A stretch of 64,000 nucleotides of DNA from an uncultured Spirochaetales bacterium (GTDB lineage Bacteria > Spirochaetota > Spirochaetia > Sphaerochaetales > Sphaerochaetaceae), in assembly GCA_949285905.1 (NCBI GenBank), contig CASDZV010000051.1, forward strand, positions 1 to 64,000, read 5' to 3'. This document shows, piece after piece, positions 2,164 to 17,913 of this stretch; within the stretch, counting starts at the first letter, position 1, and every line of letters starts with the position of its first letter. The notes under the pieces are model-generated. The model made no database searches, was not told the DNA's origin, and saw nothing but the letters and a program-made list of their open reading frames with translations. Position numbers and translations under genes: made by a program.

Positions 2164-5115
2164 TCAGATTTCTTCAGCGATTGTGATAATCTCAAACGGC
2201 TTGTAGTCGATTGTATCCACCCATCCTTCATGATCTTCCAGCATGTTCAGGGTCTCCACCTTTCTGCCGAGCTTCACTGTTCCTCTCTTTCCATCCTGTT
2301 CGGAGAGACGGTAAACAATCTTCTTGCCGTCCTCAGAGAGCTTTGCAGCTTCAAGGTAGAGCGGACCGAAATCCCAGTCTGCTGAAAGTTCTTCAGCCGT
2401 TCTCACAAGTGGTGTGTTGTACTCAATTGCTCTCTTGTTGATACCAGCTTCCACTGCGCTTCCTTCGTGAGGAAGAATTGTGAGACAGAAATCATGGTGC
2501 CCGATATCAGACATGATGTCCGGCCTGATATTAGACCTGAGAAGGCTGACAGAGAATCCGTCTTCCTGTACACCAAGGCCATACTTGCCTTCGTTGATGA
2601 CAGCAACGCCACCGTCAGCTTCAGCAAAATCTGTCCAGAGGTGTGTTGATACCTCGAATCTTGCCTGCTGCCATGTGGTGTTCCTGTGAGTCTCTCTGGA
2701 AGCATAACCTGCGCTTGTATCAGTGATGAGTGCACGAGAAAGAACATTGCAGCTGAATTCTGCTTTCATCAGCTTGTGCTTCTCGTCCCAGTCAACGATA
2801 TGCTCAGTCTCAATCTCAGGAGATGAGGAGAATACTCTGATGACAAGCTTCCACGTGCTCTTGTCTCCGGGTGTTTTCATTACTGCGGAGAACTCTGCGA
2901 CTGTGCTGTCTGCCTTGTCGAGTGAGAGTGGTTTCTCGACTTTAAGGCTGTATTCGACTTCATCATAGTTCGGTAGGATATCCCAGGCATCGTACATGCC
3001 CGGAGTGTCCTGGAAGAGGTGCAGCTTGTTGAAACCGCCCTTCACCCATTCTCTGCCGCTCTTCACATCTCTGAGGCTCTTGAAAGATCCATCCTCGTTG
3101 AATGTGATTGAGTAATATGGAGTAGTCACGCAAAGGCCATCTGCTTTAAGCCATGATGTATCTCCTGTTGTCTTATCCTCAGCCACACCCGTCTTGAGTG
3201 CGTCGATAGCAGGGTAGGAGAAGTATCCCTTCTTCCCATGCCGTGTGCTGCCGCCCTTATCGTTTTCAATGAAATGTACACCGCTTCTCTTCCAGTTGAG
3301 CGAGTTGAAGTACTTCTCGCCGCTTTCGGAGAGAATAGCGTCGAGCGAGCTGTCGACTTCACGGTAATCAGCCATTGCATCCTCGTAAACAGGGTTGATG
3401 TGAGAACCTGGGAGGATGTCATGGAACTGATTGAGCAGGAACTTCTTGTAAGCCGTGCGGATCTCATCTGCAGGGTATGCTTTTCCCGTCCTGGCTCTGA
3501 TGAGCGATACAATCTCCGTGCTCCTGAATTTGGACTCGAGCATTCTGTTATAAGCCTTGAGGTTTGATTTCGTGGTGAATGTTCCACGATGCATCTCAAG
3601 GTACAGCTCACCATCCCATACGGAAAGCTCTTCGTTGCCATCGAAGTTCGTGTGCAGATACTCATCAGCTCTCATATGCTTCGTCTTCGGCATGAGGCTC
3701 AGCTTGTCGAAGCGATGCATCATCTCAATCATCTCTTCCGTGACACCGCTGCCACCATCTCCATAGCCGAACATCGAAAGCGTTGCACCGCCTCTTTCCT
3801 TGTCCTGGTACGCATCCCAGTTCTCCATGATCTGGCTTGGCATGTTCCATGTGATGAAGTGTGTAGGAGGAACACATGCATAAATCAATGTTCCATCCAG
3901 GCCTTTCCAGAGGAAGTTGTTATGAGGGAAGCGGTTTGTATCATTCCAGGTGCTCATCTTGTTTGAGATGAAGTAATTCACACCGGATTTCCTGAGAATC
4001 TGCGGTAGAATCCAGCTGTTGCCGAATACGTCAGGAAGCCAGGCTGTATCCACTGTCAGACCAAAGGCTCTTCTGTAATAGTGCTGTCCATAGAGACACT
4101 GTCTTACAAGGCTCTCTGCGGATGGAATGTTGCAGTCTGGTTCGACATACATAGCTCCAACTGGTTCGAACTGGCCGCTTTTGACTTTCTCCTGGAGTTC
4201 CGCGAACAGATCCGGATGATACTTCTCCAGCGTCTCATATACATATGGCTGCGTATGTGTGTAATGGAAGTCCGGATACTGATCCATCAGCCTCATCTGG
4301 ATGAGAATTGTGCGCGCATTCTTCTCGACAACATGGATGCGCCTCCAGTAGTAGGCTATATCAAGATGCGAGTGCCCGATGAGCGCGACATTTCCAGATG
4401 AGCGGAAATCTGTATTCTGGAAGATTCGCTTCTCAATGTGCTCGCGGGCCTTGTCTGCACCTTCGAATGTGTCGAAGTTGACGTAGTTCAGCGCCGCATT
4501 GAGTTCCTTGGCGATATATGCTCTGGCATCTTCATCGAAGTGCTTCGACTTCGTGACGTCAATAAGCATTGTCATATCATAATACAAGCCAAGAACATCC
4601 TTGCGGAGCGTGACGACATACATGCCTGTGAAGATCTGTCTGCATCCTCGCGAGGCCATTGATTCAGGGTTTCTCTCATCATCTGGCTTTGACCTGTTGT
4701 AGCCTTCAATCTCGATTTTCACCTTTCCGTCCGGGCCGATGAAAGGAGAGAGGAGCATTCTGTCCCTGTTCGGGTCTATACCGCCAGCATAGCGGCCATT
4801 GACTTTGATGAGCATCTCGGCTGCTGTGTGATGATAAAGCCAGAGCTCCTCAGAGCGCAGTGACTCTGGAACAGTGATTTCTCCTTCAATGAATGCTGTC
4901 CCGTCTGGAGTGAAGTACATATCGCCATTGACGAGAGGCCTCCATCCTTCCGGATAGTATTCGAACTTGTCTTCGCTGATCTGACGGGCATCCCGGATAC
5001 GGAGGTCTGTAATCTCCACCTTGTCCTTGATGAACCCCCTTCTGAGCCATGAATACCTGAGGTCAGTCCATTCCTCCGGTCTCATACTTCTTCTGATGAC
5101 TTCTACGAATGCCAT
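2164..5115 (-). CDS. alpha-mannosidase, GH38
   Basis: Retaining exo-alpha-mannosidase of glycoside hydrolase family 38, 983 residues, with no signal peptide, so it acts on imported mannosides in the cytoplasm. The family features are present: a zinc-binding GHSHLD segment at the start of the catalytic domain, the nucleophile aspartate in W-L-P-D-V-F-G (about residue 362), and a long C-terminal beta-rich region. The N-terminal ~250 residues form the usual beta-sandwich extension. The start at 5115 has a strong GGAGG Shine-Dalgarno sequence. It sits between nifU-like (9 bp upstream) and phosphohexomutase (55 bp downstream). Linkage specificity is not determined; GH38 enzymes cleave alpha-1,2, -1,3 or -1,6 bonds, or mannosylglycerate-type substrates. 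Confidence 0.93.
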   Translation of the reverse strand: MAFVEVIRRSMRPEEWTDLRYSWLRRGFIKDKVEITDLRIRDARQISEDKFEYYPEGWRPLVNGDMYFTPDGTAFIEGEITVPESLRSEELWLYHHTAAEMLIKVNGRYAGGIDPNRDRMLLSPFIGPDGKVKIEIEGYNRSKPDDERNPESMASRGCRQIFTGMYVVTLRKDVLGLYYDMTMLIDVTKSKHFDEDARAYIAKELNAALNYVNFDTFEGADKAREHIEKRIFQNTDFRSSGNVALIGHSHLDIAYYWRRIHVVEKNARTILIQMRLMDQYPDFHYTHTQPYVYETLEKYHPDLFAELQEKVKSGQFEPVGAMYVEPDCNIPSAESLVRQCLYGQHYYRRAFGLTVDTAWLPDVFGNSWILPQILRKSGVNYFISNKMSTWNDTNRFPHNNFLWKGLDGTLIYACVPPTHFITWNMPSQIMENWDAYQDKERGGATLSMFGYGDGGSGVTEEMIEMMHRFDKLSLMPKTKHMRADEYLHTNFDGNEELSVWDGELYLEMHRGTFTTKSNLKAYNRMLESKFRSTEIVSLIRARTGKAYPADEIRTAYKKFLLNQFHDILPGSHINPVYEDAMADYREVDSSLDAILSESGEKYFNSLNWKRSGVHFIENDKGGSTRHGKKGYFSYPAIDALKTGVAEDKTTGDTSWLKADGLCVTTPYYSITFNEDGSFKSLRDVKSGREWVKGGFNKLHLFQDTPGMYDAWDILPNYDEVEYSLKVEKPLSLDKADSTVAEFSAVMKTPGDKSTWKLVIRVFSSSPEIETEHIVDWDEKHKLMKAEFSCNVLSRALITDTSAGYASRETHRNTTWQQARFEVSTHLWTDFAEADGGVAVINEGKYGLGVQEDGFSVSLLRSNIRPDIMSDIGHHDFCLTILPHEGSAVEAGINKRAIEYNTPLVRTAEELSADWDFGPLYLEAAKLSEDGKKIVYRLSEQDGKRGTVKLGRKVETLNMLEDHEGWVDTIDYKPFEIITIAEEI

Positions 5116-5562: not shown

Positions 5563-10213
<4,651 letters not shown>

Positions 10214-10217
<4 letters not shown>

Positions 10218-11755
10218 TGTGTGTTCTGTTCCTGAAACTCGGACGGTGTCATGCCTGTAATGTTCTTGAATGCTCTGGAGAATGAACGGTAGTCATGATA
10301 ACCGAGAGTGTATGCGATATCCGTCACAGATGCATTCCGGTCCAGAAGCCGCCGTCTGGCATCTTCCATCTTGCGTTGGAGTATGAACTCCCTGAGTGTG
10401 ATTCCTGTCTTTTTCCTGAAGTAGATAGCAGCATATGATGGACTCAGATTCACTTCAGCTGCGATATCCTCAAGCCTGATCTGCTCTTCAGGGTGTGAAT
10501 CGACGTATTCTGTCATCCGCTGGATAATCTCATCATCGCTCTTCTCTCCAAGCCTCAGTTCCGCCACATCTTTTCCGTAGACAGCAGCAATGTAAGAAGC
10601 AAGATGCTTGAATAGCCTGGCCAGTCCTTGTTCCAGTGCAGGGATTGTCTTGAATTCTGTTATCGCAGGGGCATCGGGCAGAAGTGATGTGTCGTTTATT
10701 ATCGGAGAGAGGCGTTTCCCGACTTCTCTTATAAGCCAGTTTGTGATGCTGTATACATAATTAGGTGGCGGGAGCGTTTTCCCGAGAAGTGTTTTGATGA
10801 AGACGCCGCAGAAATCCACGATAGCTTCTGTATCGTTGTCAAGGATTGCCTGGGCAAGCGGTTCGACATCCCTGTCATCTGGTTTGTATTCTGGCGGGGT
10901 TGTGGCAATGGTATCTGCAGTGAAGATTCTTCCATTCTCATCGTATAGCTGATACGAGAGTGCAAGTGCCGCACTTGCGAATGAAGATGATGAGAGTCCG
11001 ATTCTCTCGACAGTCTTCCCGATGGCTATCACAGGAAGAGGCATATCATTTTCTTTCAGGGCCTTCAGTTCAGATTCCGCTATCTCGAATGGCGTTTTCT
11101 CAGAAATCCCGAAAAGAGCGCGGAGTGTCTTCTGATCCTTGCTCCAGAGAATGCGCCTGAGGCCTTTTGTGGCATTTTCAAGTATTGTCAGCGTCCCTTC
11201 CTTCATATTGTCCCGGAAGGCGTAGACCATTGCGAAACACGGTCCTTCAGAGAGCCCTTCAGGATCCGATGTGATCATTGCGGCAGCGGAGGATGTGTTC
11301 AGCAGCTTTCCGTCTGCGAGGTCATTGAGAGTCGAGCGGCTTATATGAACCGCATCCTCTCCGTGGGCTGACAGCCTGTGCTTCCTGAGGTCTGAGAGCG
11401 TGTCTCTCAGCTCGTCTGTATCGACAGGTTTCAGAAGATAAGCCTTGGCCTGGAATTTCAGCGCCTTCCTCGCATACTCGAAGTTGCCGTATCCGCTGAG
11501 AATAATGATATCTGTGTCAGTTGCAGCTGCTGCAAGCTTCTCCAGCACATCAAGCCCGGTCATTCCCGGCATCATGATATCCATTATGGCGAAATCCGGT
11601 CTGTAGGAGAGTATTTTCTCAAGCGCAGAAGGGCCGGAATCGGCAGTGGCGACTACATTGATGCCGAGTTCCTTCCAGACAGGAAGCGAGGCCAGTCCCT
11701 CTGTGATGGCTGGCTCATCATCGGCGAGTATTGCTGTCAGATAAGGCGTATCCAT
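10214..11755 (-). CDS. response regulator with AraC output domain, YesN type
   Basis: Transcription regulator of 513 residues. The N-terminal receiver has the acidic pocket D-D-E (12-14), the phospho-acceptor aspartate D59 in M-D-I-M-M-P-G and the conserved lysine K109 in L-L-K-P. The middle ~250 residues are a poorly conserved helical linker. The C-terminal ~100 residues carry two AraC helix-turn-helix units. It overlaps its kinase gene by 4 bp. The gene starts directly after TATACT plus six bases (minus strand 11767-11756) and lacks a Shine-Dalgarno sequence, so the kinase-regulator mRNA is predicted to be leaderless. It probably activates the divergent importer operon. Confidence 0.93.
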
Positions 11756-11875
11756 GTGTTAAGTATAGTTTATTTCACTTGAATCTGTCCTGTACAGACT
11801 GGAAAATGTCCTTTTTCTCTTTTCAAACCGCTTTTAGCATTTAAAATGATTGATATACATTCAAAGGAGGAAAGA
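11756..11875. promoter_or_regulatory. divergent control region between regulator and ABC importer operons
   Basis: The 120-bp gap holds on the minus strand the TATACT -10 of the response regulator (11767-11762), six bases from its ATG. On the plus strand it holds a candidate -10 TAAAAT (11842-11847) and a strong Shine-Dalgarno sequence AAAGGAGG (11863-11870), five bases before the binding-protein ATG at 11876. Around 11785-11799 lies an inverted repeat TCTGT-N5-ACAGA with an 8-bp palindromic centre CTGTACAG. It is a reasonable operator candidate for the YesN-type regulator. Confidence 0.5.
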
Positions 11876-13246
11876 ATGAAAAGAGCAGCAAAGACGCTTC
11901 TCCTTGCAGGTATTATCCTTGCACTTTTCCTTGGACCTGTATTCGCTGGCGGATCCAGTGAGTCAGCTTCTTCAGAAGGAAAGACAGTTATAGAAGTCTG
12001 GTCAGAAGACAGACACGATATGGAATATGTTGAGGCAAAGGTTGCAGAGTACAATGCAACAAATACTGACAATATCCAGATCAACCTGACAATCATCTCT
12101 GATAACTTCCGCAATATGCTCCAGATGGCATTCGGTGGTGGTACAGCTCCAGATGTCGCAGGTATCAACGCAATTCCTATCAACATGGTTGTTGATACAG
12201 GTCTTGCTATGCCTCTCAATGATTTCATTGCAGAGTCTCCTGAGTATCAGAAGGTCAATGACCCGTATAACCAGATTTATGAGGGAACAAACGCAAAGAA
12301 TGGCAACGTCTACTGGATTCCTACAGGAATGAGATCAGGTGTACGTGTCATTTACAACAAGGACCTCATCGAGCAGTGTGGTTATACAGAGATTCCTTCC
12401 AAGCTTGAAGACTACATTGATATGGCTGCTGACATCACAGCTCAGGGAAACAGCAGATTCTATGGAATCGGATTCACAAACGCTTCCCCGTTCGAGAGAC
12501 TTCTCGAGATGTCTGCACAGATGTCTGGTATTTACTACTATGACTATGTGAACGGCCGCTATGATTTCTCCGGCTATAAGCCAATTCTTGAGCTTGGCAG
12601 AAGATTCTTCACAGAGAATATCGCATACCCAGATCAGCAGGGTGTAGATAACATGCGTGCTCTCTTCTCTGTCGGAATGTTCGCTCTCTGGTCAAACGCT
12701 TCACAGGAAGCAGCAGTATTCACAGAGCAGATTCCTGTCCAGGGATTCGAGTGGGGTGTTGCAGAGGTTCCTACACTCACAGGAGAGGTAGAGGGCGCTC
12801 TTATCACAACTCCATCAAAGGGCTGGGGCATCATCTCTTCCACAAAGCATCCTGAAGAGGCATGGAAGGTTATCGAGTTCTTCCAGTCTGAAGATTTCAT
12901 CAAGGGATACCTTGAAGCAGGATATGTTCTCCCATCAACAGAATATATGGCATCTGTAATTGATTCTTCCAAGACAGGACGCCTCGCAGACTTCTCCCTC
13001 AAGCCGTATGAGACTGTTTATCCAGCACCACCGGCTGTAAACCTTTCCGGAGATGACTACCGCACAGTATTCTGGAATGCTGTCCAGGGCTATGTTGATA
13101 TCGATGCTGCCATCAACGATCTCAACACACGCTACAACGAAGCTCTTGACGCAGACGTGGCATCCGGTTCGGCAACAAGACTTGTAATCAAGGATTACGA
13201 TCCGCTGCATCCGAACCTTGGTACACCGGAGTATCTGACAGAATAG
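11876..13246 (+). CDS. ABC transporter sugar-binding protein (family 1)
   Basis: Extracytoplasmic solute-binding protein of 456 residues, homologous to MalE/UgpB-type carbohydrate binders. It starts with a basic N-terminus and a hydrophobic core ending V-F-A, then G-G-S-S-E-S. There is no lipobox cysteine, so it is predicted to be cleaved and released into the periplasm rather than lipid-anchored. The ATG at 11876 is chosen over an upstream in-frame start at 11846 because it has AAAGGAGG at the right distance and begins directly with the signal peptide. It is followed by a hairpin and two permease genes, and is probably controlled by the divergent YesMN-like pair. The transported sugar is unknown. 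Confidence 0.92.
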   Translation: MKRAAKTLLLAGIILALFLGPVFAGGSSESASSEGKTVIEVWSEDRHDMEYVEAKVAEYNATNTDNIQINLTIISDNFRNMLQMAFGGGTAPDVAGINAIPINMVVDTGLAMPLNDFIAESPEYQKVNDPYNQIYEGTNAKNGNVYWIPTGMRSGVRVIYNKDLIEQCGYTEIPSKLEDYIDMAADITAQGNSRFYGIGFTNASPFERLLEMSAQMSGIYYYDYVNGRYDFSGYKPILELGRRFFTENIAYPDQQGVDNMRALFSVGMFALWSNASQEAAVFTEQIPVQGFEWGVAEVPTLTGEVEGALITTPSKGWGIISSTKHPEEAWKVIEFFQSEDFIKGYLEAGYVLPSTEYMASVIDSSKTGRLADFSLKPYETVYPAPPAVNLSGDDYRTVFWNAVQGYVDIDAAINDLNTRYNEALDADVASGSATRLVIKDYDPLHPNLGTPEYLTE

Positions 13247-13308: not shown

Positions 13309-14232
13309 ATGAAAAACAAAGCACCAAAACTGGTCAAGAAGGAAGACAAGAAAGACAGAGTAGCTGCTATGCTGATGCTTGCTCCTGTCGTCTTCCTGCT
13401 TCTGATCTGTTCAATCTATCCATTCCTGTGGATGTTCCGATACGTCTGTTATGATTACAATGGCTTTACGGCCCATTTCACCGGTACCAGGAACTTCACG
13501 AGAATGATCTCTGATACAACATTCTGGACAAGTGTCGGGCATACATTCGAGTATGCTTTCTACAAACTTGTATTCATTATCCCGCTTGCCCTTGTCGTTG
13601 CAGTCCTGCTGAACCAGAAGATCAGAGGCACCTCGGTATTCCGTGCTGTCTACTTCATGCCTACGGTTATAAGCTCATCAATCTCCGGTATGATCTTCAC
13701 ATTCATCTTTGCAACGCAGAATGGTATTCTCAATGGCATGCTCATGGCTCTCGGCATGGATGCTCCTGTGCAGTGGCTTACAAGTCCTGAACATGTCATG
13801 AGTGCCGTCACAGTACTGGCTGTATGGGGCGGTTTCGGTAACTACATGCTCTATTTCATCACCGGTATGAATGTCATTTCCGAGGATGTCTATGAGGCTG
13901 CAAAGATTGACGGCGCCAATGGCGTTCAGACATTCTTCAAGATTACACTTCCAATGCTCAGCCCGATCCTGAAGGTCGTTCTCATGCTTGCGATCACAGG
14001 TGCGTTCAAGGATTATGAAGCTATCATGGTTCTCACGCAGGGAGGTCCTGGCAACAGATCGATGGTCATGTTCCTCTATATCTACAACATGATCTTCGGC
14101 TCCGGTTTGACAAATATGACACAGCCTCAGATAGGATACGGCGCTCTGCTTTCTGTAGTCGCTGCTATCATCGTCGGTATCGTTACGATTGCTTACCAGC
14201 GTATTGCACGTAAGCTCGATGACGTGATGTAA
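13309..14232 (+). CDS. ABC sugar permease, MalF/UgpA type
   Basis: Inner-membrane importer subunit of 307 residues with six predicted transmembrane helices and the cytoplasmic EAA loop (E-A-A-K-I-D-G-A) that docks on the ATPase. A basic, lysine-rich N-terminus precedes the first helix. The start follows AAGGAGG. It is the second gene of the importer operon and lies 10 bp before the partner permease. No ATPase gene is in this operon; the MsmK-like ATPase encoded at 37346-38443 could energise both importers, as shared ATPases are known for this transporter class. Confidence 0.92.
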   Translation: MKNKAPKLVKKEDKKDRVAAMLMLAPVVFLLLICSIYPFLWMFRYVCYDYNGFTAHFTGTRNFTRMISDTTFWTSVGHTFEYAFYKLVFIIPLALVVAVLLNQKIRGTSVFRAVYFMPTVISSSISGMIFTFIFATQNGILNGMLMALGMDAPVQWLTSPEHVMSAVTVLAVWGGFGNYMLYFITGMNVISEDVYEAAKIDGANGVQTFFKITLPMLSPILKVVLMLAITGAFKDYEAIMVLTQGGPGNRSMVMFLYIYNMIFGSGLTNMTQPQIGYGALLSVVAAIIVGIVTIAYQRIARKLDDVM

Positions 14233-14242
14233 GGGGGACAAG

Positions 14243-15109
14243 ATGGAAAAATCTAGAGCTGTAATGTCAGGAAAGCAGAAAACCGTGATGTTCATCATCT
14301 GGTGTCTGATGCTTATCCTCGGTATTATTACCGTCTTCCCTGTCGTTTACATCGTGCTGGGATCATTCAAGAGCAATGTAGAGCTTCTTGTTGGTGGATC
14401 TAATATCTTCCCGACAGAGTGGCATTTTGAGAACTATGTCCAGGCTTGGACTGGCGCGAAATTCGCTACATACACATGGAACAGTGTTATGATCTCTGTC
14501 TGTGTCATGCTTATCTCGCTCTTCATATCCACAATGGCTGGCTATGTGTTCTCGCGAAGCCATTTCCCTGGAAAGAATCTCATATATGGAATCTTTGTAG
14601 CATTCATGTTCATCAACGTCGGTTCTGTATCAATCAGGCCGCTTTATGAGCTTGCTACTGCATTGCACCTTAATGAGAGCCTCTTGCCGATTATCCTTAT
14701 ATCAACAGGTACGGGACAGGCGACGTACATCTTCCTCTCAAGAGGATTTGTTGATTCTGTTCCTCGTGAGCTTGATGAGGCAGCCAAGATTGATGGCTGT
14801 ACGTTCTTCCAGACATTCATCAGGATCATCCTTCCTGTACTGAAGCCTGTCATGGGAACGATTGCGCTCCTTTCATTCCGTCAGGGATGGAACGAATACA
14901 TCATGCCTTTGGTCTTCACGATGGCAAGAGATAACCTCCGGCCACTCACAGTCGGTGTTAATATGCTCAAGGCCACCGGTGGTGGCGCAGCCGCGTGGAA
15001 CGTAATGTTCGCGGGTGCTTCCATCGCTGTTGTACCTATGCTTATTATCTATATAATCTTCAACAAGAACTTCATGAGCGGCTCGACCGCCGGTGCGGTG
15101 AAAGGTTGA
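14243..15109 (+). CDS. ABC sugar permease, MalG/UgpE type
   Basis: Second membrane subunit of the importer, 288 residues, six predicted helices, with an EAA loop (E-A-A-K-I-D-G-C) about 90 residues from the C-terminus. It starts 10 bp after the first permease, behind the Shine-Dalgarno sequence GGGGGA. It pairs with the 13309-14232 product and takes sugar from the 11876-13246 binding protein. A GC-rich hairpin follows the stop codon, before the uncharacterised gene at 15149. Substrate is unknown. Confidence 0.92.
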   Translation: MEKSRAVMSGKQKTVMFIIWCLMLILGIITVFPVVYIVLGSFKSNVELLVGGSNIFPTEWHFENYVQAWTGAKFATYTWNSVMISVCVMLISLFISTMAGYVFSRSHFPGKNLIYGIFVAFMFINVGSVSIRPLYELATALHLNESLLPIILISTGTGQATYIFLSRGFVDSVPRELDEAAKIDGCTFFQTFIRIILPVLKPVMGTIALLSFRQGWNEYIMPLVFTMARDNLRPLTVGVNMLKATGGGAAAWNVMFAGASIAVVPMLIIYIIFNKNFMSGSTAGAVKG

Positions 15110-15115
15110 ATCATC

Positions 15116-15131
15116 GGGGGCTCAGGCCCCC
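15116..15131 (+). terminator. GC-rich intercistronic hairpin
   Basis: Perfect 6-bp stem GGGGGC/GCCCCC with loop TCAG, seven bases after the second permease stop. It is followed by ATATATTTTGAGG, a short T run merging into the Shine-Dalgarno sequence of the next gene. Likely a partial terminator or mRNA-processing barrier inside the operon. Confidence 0.6.
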
Positions 15132-15148: not shown

Positions 15149-17536
15149 ATGCGTGCATTGAATCGTGATGGGTTTGTGATGAGCTATGTCTCGTCAATTT
15201 ATGCAGAGGATTACGAAACTGACCTGACAGACCGTAATCAGCTTCGTCTTGAAGCAAGACTGCGCAAGGCTATCTCCGAGAAAAAGCCGGCAGAGCTTCC
15301 CGGACTGCCACAGGGAATGAGACCATACTACTCACATGGTAACATCTTTGTGGATCACTCATCATTCTATTCAACTCTCAACCGGGTGAGGATGAATGTA
15401 GCTACAACGCTTTTGAGTGATGATGAGCAGGATGTGGATGCTATTCTCTGGAGCTATATGTCCACAGGTGCCTATCTGAATGGAAGTCTTGTTGCCGAGA
15501 TTGAGCATCCTGTCTACAAGCCCATTGAGAGTGTGCGTTTCAGGATGCACCTCAGGAAGGGAAGGAATGATGTGGTATTCCTCTCTGATAATCTCGGTGT
15601 TCGCGACACGCGCAACATGCTTGCTTTCCAGATTGTCACGGGCCACGGAATCATGACGACAATCCCAGATGAGAATGCAGAAAAAACATATGCTGGGAAC
15701 ACAGCATTCCTTGATGGAATCAAAATAGAAGAAGGCAAGCTTGTGTTCCCATATCCTGCGCCGGATGGTGCTATGCTTGAATATGCACAGCCCACAGATG
15801 ATTACTGCAAGAAACAGAGTCTCAGCAGGAGAGAAGATATTTCCAGAAAGGAATGTGCTGAAATTCCTCAAGGCATTGAGAGAACAGGGGTAACAATTGA
15901 TGGAATGACGCGCAGATTTGAGTTTTCTGAGCGTATCAGGCCATCATTCATTCCGTTCCGTGGCAACAGCGAGGCTCATTTCAGGGACATCATCGAGCGT
16001 ATTGCAAATCTTGAGATGCTGGACCGCGGCGACCATGGCTTTGCTATTTTCTCTTCTCTTGCAAGGCATTACCTGAACAAGCTTCGTCCCGATGAGAACA
16101 AGTACCTTAAGAATGATATCGACCTTATAAAGAGGCGTGGTGACTGCTCAGATTTCCTCGTATGCGGCCTTCTGAGATATATACATGAATATGGTCTTCC
16201 TGAAGAACTGAAGGCAGACGCGAAGGAGGCGCTTCTCAATTTCCGCTACTGGATGACGATGAAGGGCGCAGATGGTATGTGCTTCTGGTCAGAGAACCAT
16301 GCGCTTATGTTCTATTACTCTGCCTGCGATGCAGGAGCGCTGTATCCTGATGAATATTTCCCGAGAGCTGGAATGACAGGACGCGAGCTTCATGCATATG
16401 GGGAGAGACGGGTTGATGAATGGCTTGATGATGTGCTTGAAAGCGGCTATGAGGAATTCCTGAGCTCAACATATATGTGCGTCACATTCGCAGTTCTGCT
16501 GAATGTCATAGATTACTGCAAACCTTCAATTGCCGCTAAAGCATGGAAAGCTACTGACAGGATTCTTGAGATGCTTGCAGACAGTACATTCTCTGGAGCG
16601 GTCATCGCACCGATGGGCAGAGTGTACCGCGGTGTCATCTACCCATTCCGCGAGGCCGTCTCTTCGTTGATAAATGCTGTCGATGAAGAATCGCCTTATG
16701 CATATGGGGAGGGCTGGATCTCTTATCTTGCTACAAGCCGCTACAAAATGCCGGAAGGCCTTGCTGAGCGCATGCACAGCAATATCGAGAAGCGTTATAG
16801 CACAGGCAACGCAATGGTGTCCGTTGAGAAAAATGAGAGCTATATGCTCACAGCTGTTGAGTCCCCGAGAACAGATTCAGCTTTCATACGCTGGAAGAAT
16901 GTTCTTGATGATGACTCGCTTGATGCTGAAGATAACAGATTCGTCAAATCCATCAATGAATGCTTCCATGGCACATCATGCTTCCAGAGTGGTGTTTATG
17001 GCTATCAGCAGCATATGTGGTCCGCCGCGCTATCTGCAGAGGCCGTAGTCTTTGCGAATCACCCTGGAACAACTTCAGAGGATGCAGAGCTGAGGCCTGG
17101 ATACTGGAACGGAAACGGAGTAATGCCTGCGATAGTAGTCAGGCATGGTGAGCTTGGTGCTGTTTACAATATACCAGAGAATCATCCTGTGCCTTTCACT
17201 CATCTCTATCTTCCGCGCGCAAGATTCGCAGAATGCAGAATTGACGGGCATTGGATATTCCTCAGGGAAGGTAAAGGTTATCTGGCTATCTGGTTAAGCG
17301 GGGATGCAGTTCCATATGATGACATGATTGCTTCTTCAGAGCTGAGAGTCTATGCAAGGAATGCAGCTTACTACGTCAGAGCCGCAAAATGTACCGACAT
17401 TGATTTCGATTCATTCTGCAGCATGATGAAAGCTACTGCCGTGACATTCTCGGAAGATGCACTTGAACTTTCGGTGAACGGAAGCGTCATGGTGCATTTC
17501 AGCGTTTTTGATGATAAGACACAGTATCTTGATTAG
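15149..17536 (+). CDS. uncharacterised 795-residue protein, possible carbohydrate-active enzyme
   Basis: I do not recognise a characterised family. There is no signal peptide or membrane segment, so it is cytoplasmic. The N-terminal third (about 40-190) reads like a beta-sandwich: a segment A-Y-L-N-G and a later F-L-S-D-N-L-G resemble the jelly-roll modules of GH2, rhamnosidase or mannosidase enzymes. The middle (about 300-600) is helical, with W-S-E-N-H-A-L-M-F and an S-S-T-Y-M segment, in the style of an (alpha/alpha) toroid as in polysaccharide lyases and GH family enzymes. The C-terminal ~200 residues look beta-rich. Being last in the YesMN-controlled importer operon, it probably degrades the imported oligosaccharide. 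Its stop codon overlaps that of the c-di-AMP receptor gene on the other strand. Confidence 0.75.
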   Translation: MRALNRDGFVMSYVSSIYAEDYETDLTDRNQLRLEARLRKAISEKKPAELPGLPQGMRPYYSHGNIFVDHSSFYSTLNRVRMNVATTLLSDDEQDVDAILWSYMSTGAYLNGSLVAEIEHPVYKPIESVRFRMHLRKGRNDVVFLSDNLGVRDTRNMLAFQIVTGHGIMTTIPDENAEKTYAGNTAFLDGIKIEEGKLVFPYPAPDGAMLEYAQPTDDYCKKQSLSRREDISRKECAEIPQGIERTGVTIDGMTRRFEFSERIRPSFIPFRGNSEAHFRDIIERIANLEMLDRGDHGFAIFSSLARHYLNKLRPDENKYLKNDIDLIKRRGDCSDFLVCGLLRYIHEYGLPEELKADAKEALLNFRYWMTMKGADGMCFWSENHALMFYYSACDAGALYPDEYFPRAGMTGRELHAYGERRVDEWLDDVLESGYEEFLSSTYMCVTFAVLLNVIDYCKPSIAAKAWKATDRILEMLADSTFSGAVIAPMGRVYRGVIYPFREAVSSLINAVDEESPYAYGEGWISYLATSRYKMPEGLAERMHSNIEKRYSTGNAMVSVEKNESYMLTAVESPRTDSAFIRWKNVLDDDSLDAEDNRFVKSINECFHGTSCFQSGVYGYQQHMWSAALSAEAVVFANHPGTTSEDAELRPGYWNGNGVMPAIVVRHGELGAVYNIPENHPVPFTHLYLPRARFAECRIDGHWIFLREGKGYLAIWLSGDAVPYDDMIASSELRVYARNAAYYVRAAKCTDIDFDSFCSMMKATAVTFSEDALELSVNGSVMVHFSVFDDKTQYLD

Positions 17537-17862
17537 AACTTCTGGGCTTTATCGATATCGAGGACAAATACAACACATCCACCGGCAGGGACTTCAACCA
17601 TATTTGCCCCTGCTGGATTGAACATTCTCATATCCGCACCAGATACAGGGCTGAGCTGCATTCTGTGGCCCGCATACTTTTTGAGCACTTCAAGCACAGC
17701 ATCGACTTTCTCGTCCTCTGTACCGATCAGCAGTGTTGTGTTCTTTGCTTTCAGGAATCCACCGGTTGTTGAAAGCTTCGTGACGAAGAAGCCTTTCTTG
17801 TTCAGCTCCTGCACGGTATCTGTCTCATCTGCTGTCTGTATGATTGAAAGAATAAGCTTCAT
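17533..17862 (-). CDS. darA: cyclic-di-AMP receptor, DarA/PstA family (DUF970)
   Basis: A 109-residue PII-like trimeric receptor that binds cyclic-di-AMP. The central S-T-T-G-G-F-L segment and the following N-T-T-L-L-I-G strand are the family signature that frames the nucleotide pocket. The ATG at 17862 is preferred to an in-frame upstream start at 17913 because AAAGGAGA lies just before it and the protein then begins with the normal M-K-L-I. A good promoter precedes it. No diadenylate cyclase or phosphodiesterase is in the window. The gene's TAA and the TAG of the convergent 795-residue gene share bases. Its downstream target is not known for spirochaetes. Confidence 0.85.
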   Translation of the reverse strand: MKLILSIIQTADETDTVQELNKKGFFVTKLSTTGGFLKAKNTTLLIGTEDEKVDAVLEVLKKYAGHRMQLSPVSGADMRMFNPAGANMVEVPAGGCVVFVLDIDKAQKF

Positions 17863-17883
17863 CCGTTTTCTCCTTTTTCTGCT

Positions 17884-17913
17884 ATTATACCATGACAGAG
17901 CATGCAATAGCAA
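17884..17913 (-). promoter_or_regulatory. promoter of the c-di-AMP receptor gene
   Basis: On the minus strand, TTGCTA (17913-17908), an 18-base spacer and TATAAT (17889-17884). Transcription would start around 17877, giving a leader of roughly 16 bases with the AAAGGAGA Shine-Dalgarno sequence. The rest of the 225-bp gap (17863-18087) contains only the malQ promoter; nothing else was seen. Confidence 0.65.

Follow-up and report, generated by a model that had tools for sequence, protein, structure and literature searches.

Which reaction is carried out by the protein encoded at the end of a YesMN-linked sugar importer locus was the question raised by an ORF at 15149–17536 (+) of the window, a 64,000-nt stretch of contig CASDZV010000051.1 from an uncultured Spirochaetales bacterium. 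The ORF runs from ATG to TAG, is preceded by a GAGGT ribosome-binding site and encodes a protein of 795 aa; relatives conserved at 59 loci of other genomes, mostly with 35–68% identity, indicated that the gene is real and not an artefact. Upstream on the same strand, in this order, lie the genes for the solute-binding protein of the importer (11846–13246; SBP_bac_1, 1.4e-25) and two sugar ABC permeases (13309–14232 and 14243–15109; MalF/UgpA- and MalG/UgpE-like matches), and the YesN response regulator (10214–11755; Pfam Response_reg and HTH_18) and YesM histidine kinase (8538–10217; Pfam His_kinase and HAMP) are divergent on the minus strand. This order confirmed the preliminary description of a 795-residue protein following a sugar importer with YesMN. 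Importer or YesMN genes stood beside the family gene in 38–43 of 60 neighbourhoods, many of which end at contig ends, with the solute-binding protein gene present in 38 of the 60. A terminator-like scan detected a GC-rich hairpin with a U-rich tail in the gap between the second permease gene and the 795-aa gene (15116–15131, +), consisting of a perfect 6-bp GC stem (GGGGGC-TCAG-GCCCCC) followed by the tail ATATATTTT. The hairpin was kept at this position, with an altered loop, in 12/12 spirochaete orthologues, and the sole other copy in the genome (G000:C61:6119-6134) was located just beyond the end of a transporter-like gene cluster; the hairpin is possibly a leaky terminator keeping the enzyme level under the transporter level. 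At the other end of the gene, a small convergent ORF at 17533–17913 (−), the sequence of which we take to resemble a DUF970/DarA-type c-di-AMP receptor, abuts the stop codon. The 795-aa protein and nearly all family members contained no signal peptide, which agreed with the cytoplasmic location proposed earlier and fits action on imported oligosaccharides; three distant family members carried hydrophobic N-terminal anchors instead.

The absence of a recognised family, also anticipated in the preliminary description, was borne out by the sequence searches. With the single 795-aa protein as query, no family match was obtained in Pfam (to E 1) or NCBIfam, and the Pfam heparinase II/III models PF16889 and PF07940 gave none up to E 1. 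No relative was found among the PDB sequences with either the single protein (phmmer) or the 62- and 74-row profiles, and the solved members of PL17, PL35, PL12 and PL8 were absent from these phmmer and profile searches to E 10. Alignment by hhalign to heparinase II/III proteins gave a suggestive score of 28.7, which was not significant compared to 27.9 for an unrelated YesN set and at most 16.9 for column-shuffled controls. Searching the literature for a new PL family that matched, for PL27 and for BglB/GH105 yielded no paper on the family. Judged by sequence, the family is unnamed in Pfam and NCBIfam and lies outside every family compared (Pfam, NCBIfam and PDB). Its members were spread over Spirochaetota, Lachnospiraceae, Lacrimispora and Paenibacillus and occurred in 14 of 296 genomes of the window's phylum. 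Matches in the more distant families of this phylum spanned the core only, from about profile position 290, suggesting that residues 268–795 are probably the ancestral unit and that the N-terminal domain is confined to a subset. One relative (L056:9974-13954) carried a PHP/DUF3604-like metallohydrolase domain fused to its C-terminal end, and similar PHP or CehA/McbA proteins were encoded near further relatives (L044:12490-13974, L084:3-821 and L127:7150-8076), making this type of protein a candidate recurring partner of the family.

To describe the fold, we built AlphaFold2 models of the full-length protein with 62 relatives and of the core alone with 74 relatives, which reached mean pLDDT values of 95.1 and 94.1, respectively. 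The full-length model reproduced the plan of β-sandwich, helical toroid and β-rich end outlined in the preliminary description: an N-terminal jelly roll (residues 6–166; 15164–15646, +), an (α/α) toroid (residues 268–545; 15950–16783, +) and a C-terminal antiparallel β-sheet domain (residues 546–795; 16784–17533, +), the toroid being assigned from secondary structure and structural matches and the last domain from secondary structure and alignment with lyase C-domains. The jelly roll shares the fold of the GH2 sugar-binding domain (VIA Z 9.9, rmsd 3.0, 119 residues, with 119–125 residues aligned to GH2 enzymes at rmsd 3.0–3.5). In contrast to GH2 enzymes, the 795-aa protein has no TIM barrel after the jelly roll, and Pfam Glyco_hydro_2_N did not match it up to E 1. 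The best 50 VIA rows for the core comprised 47 polysaccharide lyases with a toroid followed by a β-sheet domain, one dermatan sulfate epimerase 1 and two GH105 toroids; Z reached 10.3, and the leading rows aligned 391–449 residues over both domains. The six Foldseek matches under 1e-3 were all polysaccharide lyases of the same architecture. Z values of about 10 are moderate and can arise from the shape of a helical toroid alone; the structural evidence nevertheless carries weight because the match list belongs almost entirely to one clan and both domains align. The clan is defined by a helical toroid with an antiparallel β-sheet domain C-terminal to it, and the AlphaFold2 models showed this fold. 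Thus, the earlier proposal of a carbohydrate-active, glycan-cleaving enzyme stood as to its general plan and was sharpened by the fold to a lyase. The preliminary description had named a clear match to the profile of a characterised family as evidence against its reading; none was obtained at the sequence level, whereas the fold was that of a characterised clan without pointing to any named family within it. The dermatan sulfate epimerase 1 row (Z 10.0, 449 residues aligned) raised the alternative of a uronate C5-epimerase built on a lyase scaffold, as in the human enzyme. We regard this as very improbable, since it was a single row against 47 lyases and the bacterial neighbours, GH88/105 and Kdu genes, are catabolic.

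Conservation, counted over a 74-sequence alignment of diverse relatives, pointed to a candidate active site in the toroid. D332, D335, D375, E382, H384, E436, S439 and Y532 were invariant, and N383 and Y442 were each kept in 73/74 sequences. The motif D332-C-x-D335-F336 (16142–16156, +), in which F336 was likewise invariant, starts one toroid helix. The near-invariance of E382-N383-H384 (16292–16300, +), which begins another toroid helix at E382 and is the proposed carboxylate neutraliser, and of E436-x-x-S439-x-x-Y442 (16454–16474, +), in which Y442 is the proposed catalytic acid/base, upheld the earlier suggestion that the ENH and S-x-x-Y clusters could form an active site. Two consecutive toroid helices have N383/H384 and Y442 at their starts, 59/58 residues apart along the sequence. 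Judged by this spacing, they correspond to the Asn/His and Tyr on successive toroid helices that characterise the clan, in which the catalytic pairs of PL12, PL15, PL17, PL21, PL33, PL35 and PL39 are 53–57 residues apart (PMC12088678 Table 4; PMC11848413). A weak, non-significant profile alignment also set N383 and Y442 against the conserved Asn and the Tyr column of heparinase II/III proteins. The HxHxD motif of these proteins, which holds the catalytic His, was not conserved over the 74 family sequences, leaving the catalytic base uncertain. The stretch nearest to HxH was Q620-Q-H622 (62/74), whereas at least 32 of the 33 heparinase II/III-type sequences had an H-x-H. Conserved candidates in the β domain were Q620, H638 (17060–17062, +; 72/74) and H685 (17201–17203, +; 73/74), the two histidines being candidate helpers of Y442.

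The five invariant acids in the 74 sequences, D332, D335, D375, E382 and E436, speak against a lyase in that they would also suit a hydrolase. The protein could accordingly be a glycoside hydrolase whose active site lies in the toroid and uses two invariant carboxylates, for example among D332, D335, D375 and E436; GH65 and GH95 enzymes also have the order of β-sandwich, toroid and β domain, GH95 and GH92 enzymes were among the Foldseek matches, and GH105 toroids among the VIA rows. However, the GH95/GH92 matches spanned about 255 columns at E >1e-3 and were not among the best 50 VIA rows, the best of which were lyases over both domains, and the conservation of N-H and Tyr fits a lyase site. 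We therefore consider a hydrolase unlikely.

Comparison with the closest known systems placed the lyase-like core near several families and within none of them. PL17 oligoalginate lyases (Alg17c, 4nei/4ok4/4ojz), which are exo-acting on oligosaccharides, shared the toroid and β-sheet core (Z 10.1–10.3 over 405–415 residues) and an Asn-His pair with a Tyr about 57 residues further along. They differed in that identity was about 9%, no match was returned by the PDB sequence search, the GH2-type N-domain is extra in the 795-aa protein, and the neighbours of the family do not point to alginate. The PL35 GAG lyases (GAGase II/VII, 8khv/8khw) gave Z 9.7–10.3 and have an N192-Y246 spacing of 54, but His401, the catalytic residue of their HxH loop, had no clear counterpart in the 795-aa protein and there was no sequence match. 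PL12, PL21 and Hepar_II_III enzymes (Z 8.7–10.1) were set apart by the HxHxD missing from the 795-aa family, by the lack of a Pfam match and by a profile match that was not significant, and the PL8 xanthan, hyaluronate and chondroitin AC lyases (Z 8.2–9.7 over about 390–428 residues) by catalytic residues in another order and spacing and by no sequence match. We see a minor chance that the protein is a lyase of an already described CAZy family outside the libraries searched, such as PL27, the arabinogalactan rhamnose-glucuronate lyases. PL27 resembles the 795-aa protein in outline by published description alone, having an N-terminal β-sandwich followed by an (α/α)6 barrel or helical toroid (PMC8377490), and arabinogalactan-type neighbours occur in some relatives. 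No PL27 structure was among the structural matches listed, which was not counted against PL27; what argues against a described family is that no PDB sequence matched even with the 62- and 74-row profiles and that Pfam and NCBIfam gave no match. This alternative touches the naming and novelty of the family, the mechanism being the same as in the lyase reading.

The gene neighbourhoods were consistent with an enzyme acting in uronate catabolism. GH88/105 hydrolases act on lyase products, the unsaturated uronides. Of 19 strong GH88/105 genes in nine genomes, 9 lay no more than 10 kb from a family member; under uniform placement, 0.45 would be expected (P about 9e-11). Presence of the family, and not of GH88, was the basis for choosing these genomes, and since several come from one genus, the nine are not fully independent. 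The adjacency was found in paralogous clades of the family, where it implies a lyase acting upstream and argues against a hydrolase. No GH88/105 gene was found near members of the window's own clade, and the lyase step for the window gene is consequently drawn from fold, residues and family-wide context. One distant genome showed the order IclR, KdgK-like kinase, family member, GH88, GPH symporter, KduI, another gene, KduD and a second family member, with KduI scoring 462 bits (cut-off 250) and KduD 395 bits (cut-off 339). The window's own genome contained KduI, four GH88 matches and two paralogues of the 795-aa protein; a GH88 gene lies 271 bp away from one of these paralogues. Against the NCBIfam BglB β-galactosidase model (cut-off 420), the paralogue-adjacent GH88/105 gene of this genome (L125:6824-7906) scored 411 bits, so some GH88/105 neighbours may not be unsaturated-uronide hydrolases.

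The preliminary description had regarded importer and sensor as the sole partners of the gene and its product as probably the sole glycan-cleaving enzyme for the substrate. Neither claim survived, since a LacZ-type GH2 β-galactosidase (5598–8549, +; Pfam GH2 domains; NCBIfam 737 bits, under the 999 cut-off; 12 loci) and a GH38 α-mannosidase-like gene (2164–5115, −; Glyco_hydro_38N 3.8e-71; 13 loci) adjoin the locus, and relatives have GH28-like and heparinase genes nearby. Both window neighbours are hydrolases, which in itself would suit a hydrolase reading of the 795-aa protein. A Hepar_II_III lyase gene was located immediately upstream of the family member in four Paenibacillus loci, and a GH28-like divergent β-helix protein of 510–710 aa, probably a co-acting enzyme, was encoded close downstream of the family in 19 loci of Spirochaetes and Lachnospiraceae (e.g., L033:15424-17142). 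The GH2, GH38, GH28-like and Hepar_II_III genes are neighbours within the window's clade, and single relatives adjoined arabinofuranosidase, melibiase-type and GH95 genes. These neighbours suggest plant-type acidic oligosaccharides as the substrate, with no single one fixed; acidic side chains of pectin or arabinogalactan are our guess from the GH2, GH28-like, GH51, GH27 and GH95 neighbours of relatives.

Taken together, we consider it likely that the 795-aa protein is a cytoplasmic β-eliminating lyase acting on imported uronate oligosaccharides, a reading in which fold, conservation and neighbourhoods are computed and from which we infer activity, residue roles and product. A uronate oligosaccharide would be captured by the binding protein, imported by the ABC importer under YesMN control and bound where the toroid and the C-terminal β domain form a cleft. 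There, N383 (with H384) would neutralise the carboxylate of the +1 uronate, and Y442 would take the C5 proton and protonate the leaving oxygen, probably helped by H638 or H685. The predicted product is a 4,5-unsaturated uronide, on which a GH88/105 hydrolase and the enzymes of the KduI pathway would act. The protein probably represents a new sequence family within the known clan of toroid and β-sheet lyases, new relative to Pfam, NCBIfam and PDB sequences. By a narrow preference, we take it as the founding member of a new family of polysaccharide lyases, one that carries a GH2-type jelly roll before the lyase core, lacks the usual HxH catalytic loop and acts inside the cells of gut spirochaetes and clostridia on uronate oligosaccharides delivered by the importer. 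If this is true, a widespread family of Spirochaetota, Lachnospiraceae, Lacrimispora and Paenibacillus that is unnamed in the libraries searched would gain a function, and these bacteria would have a testable route by which oligosaccharides containing uronic acid are taken up and then split inside the cell.
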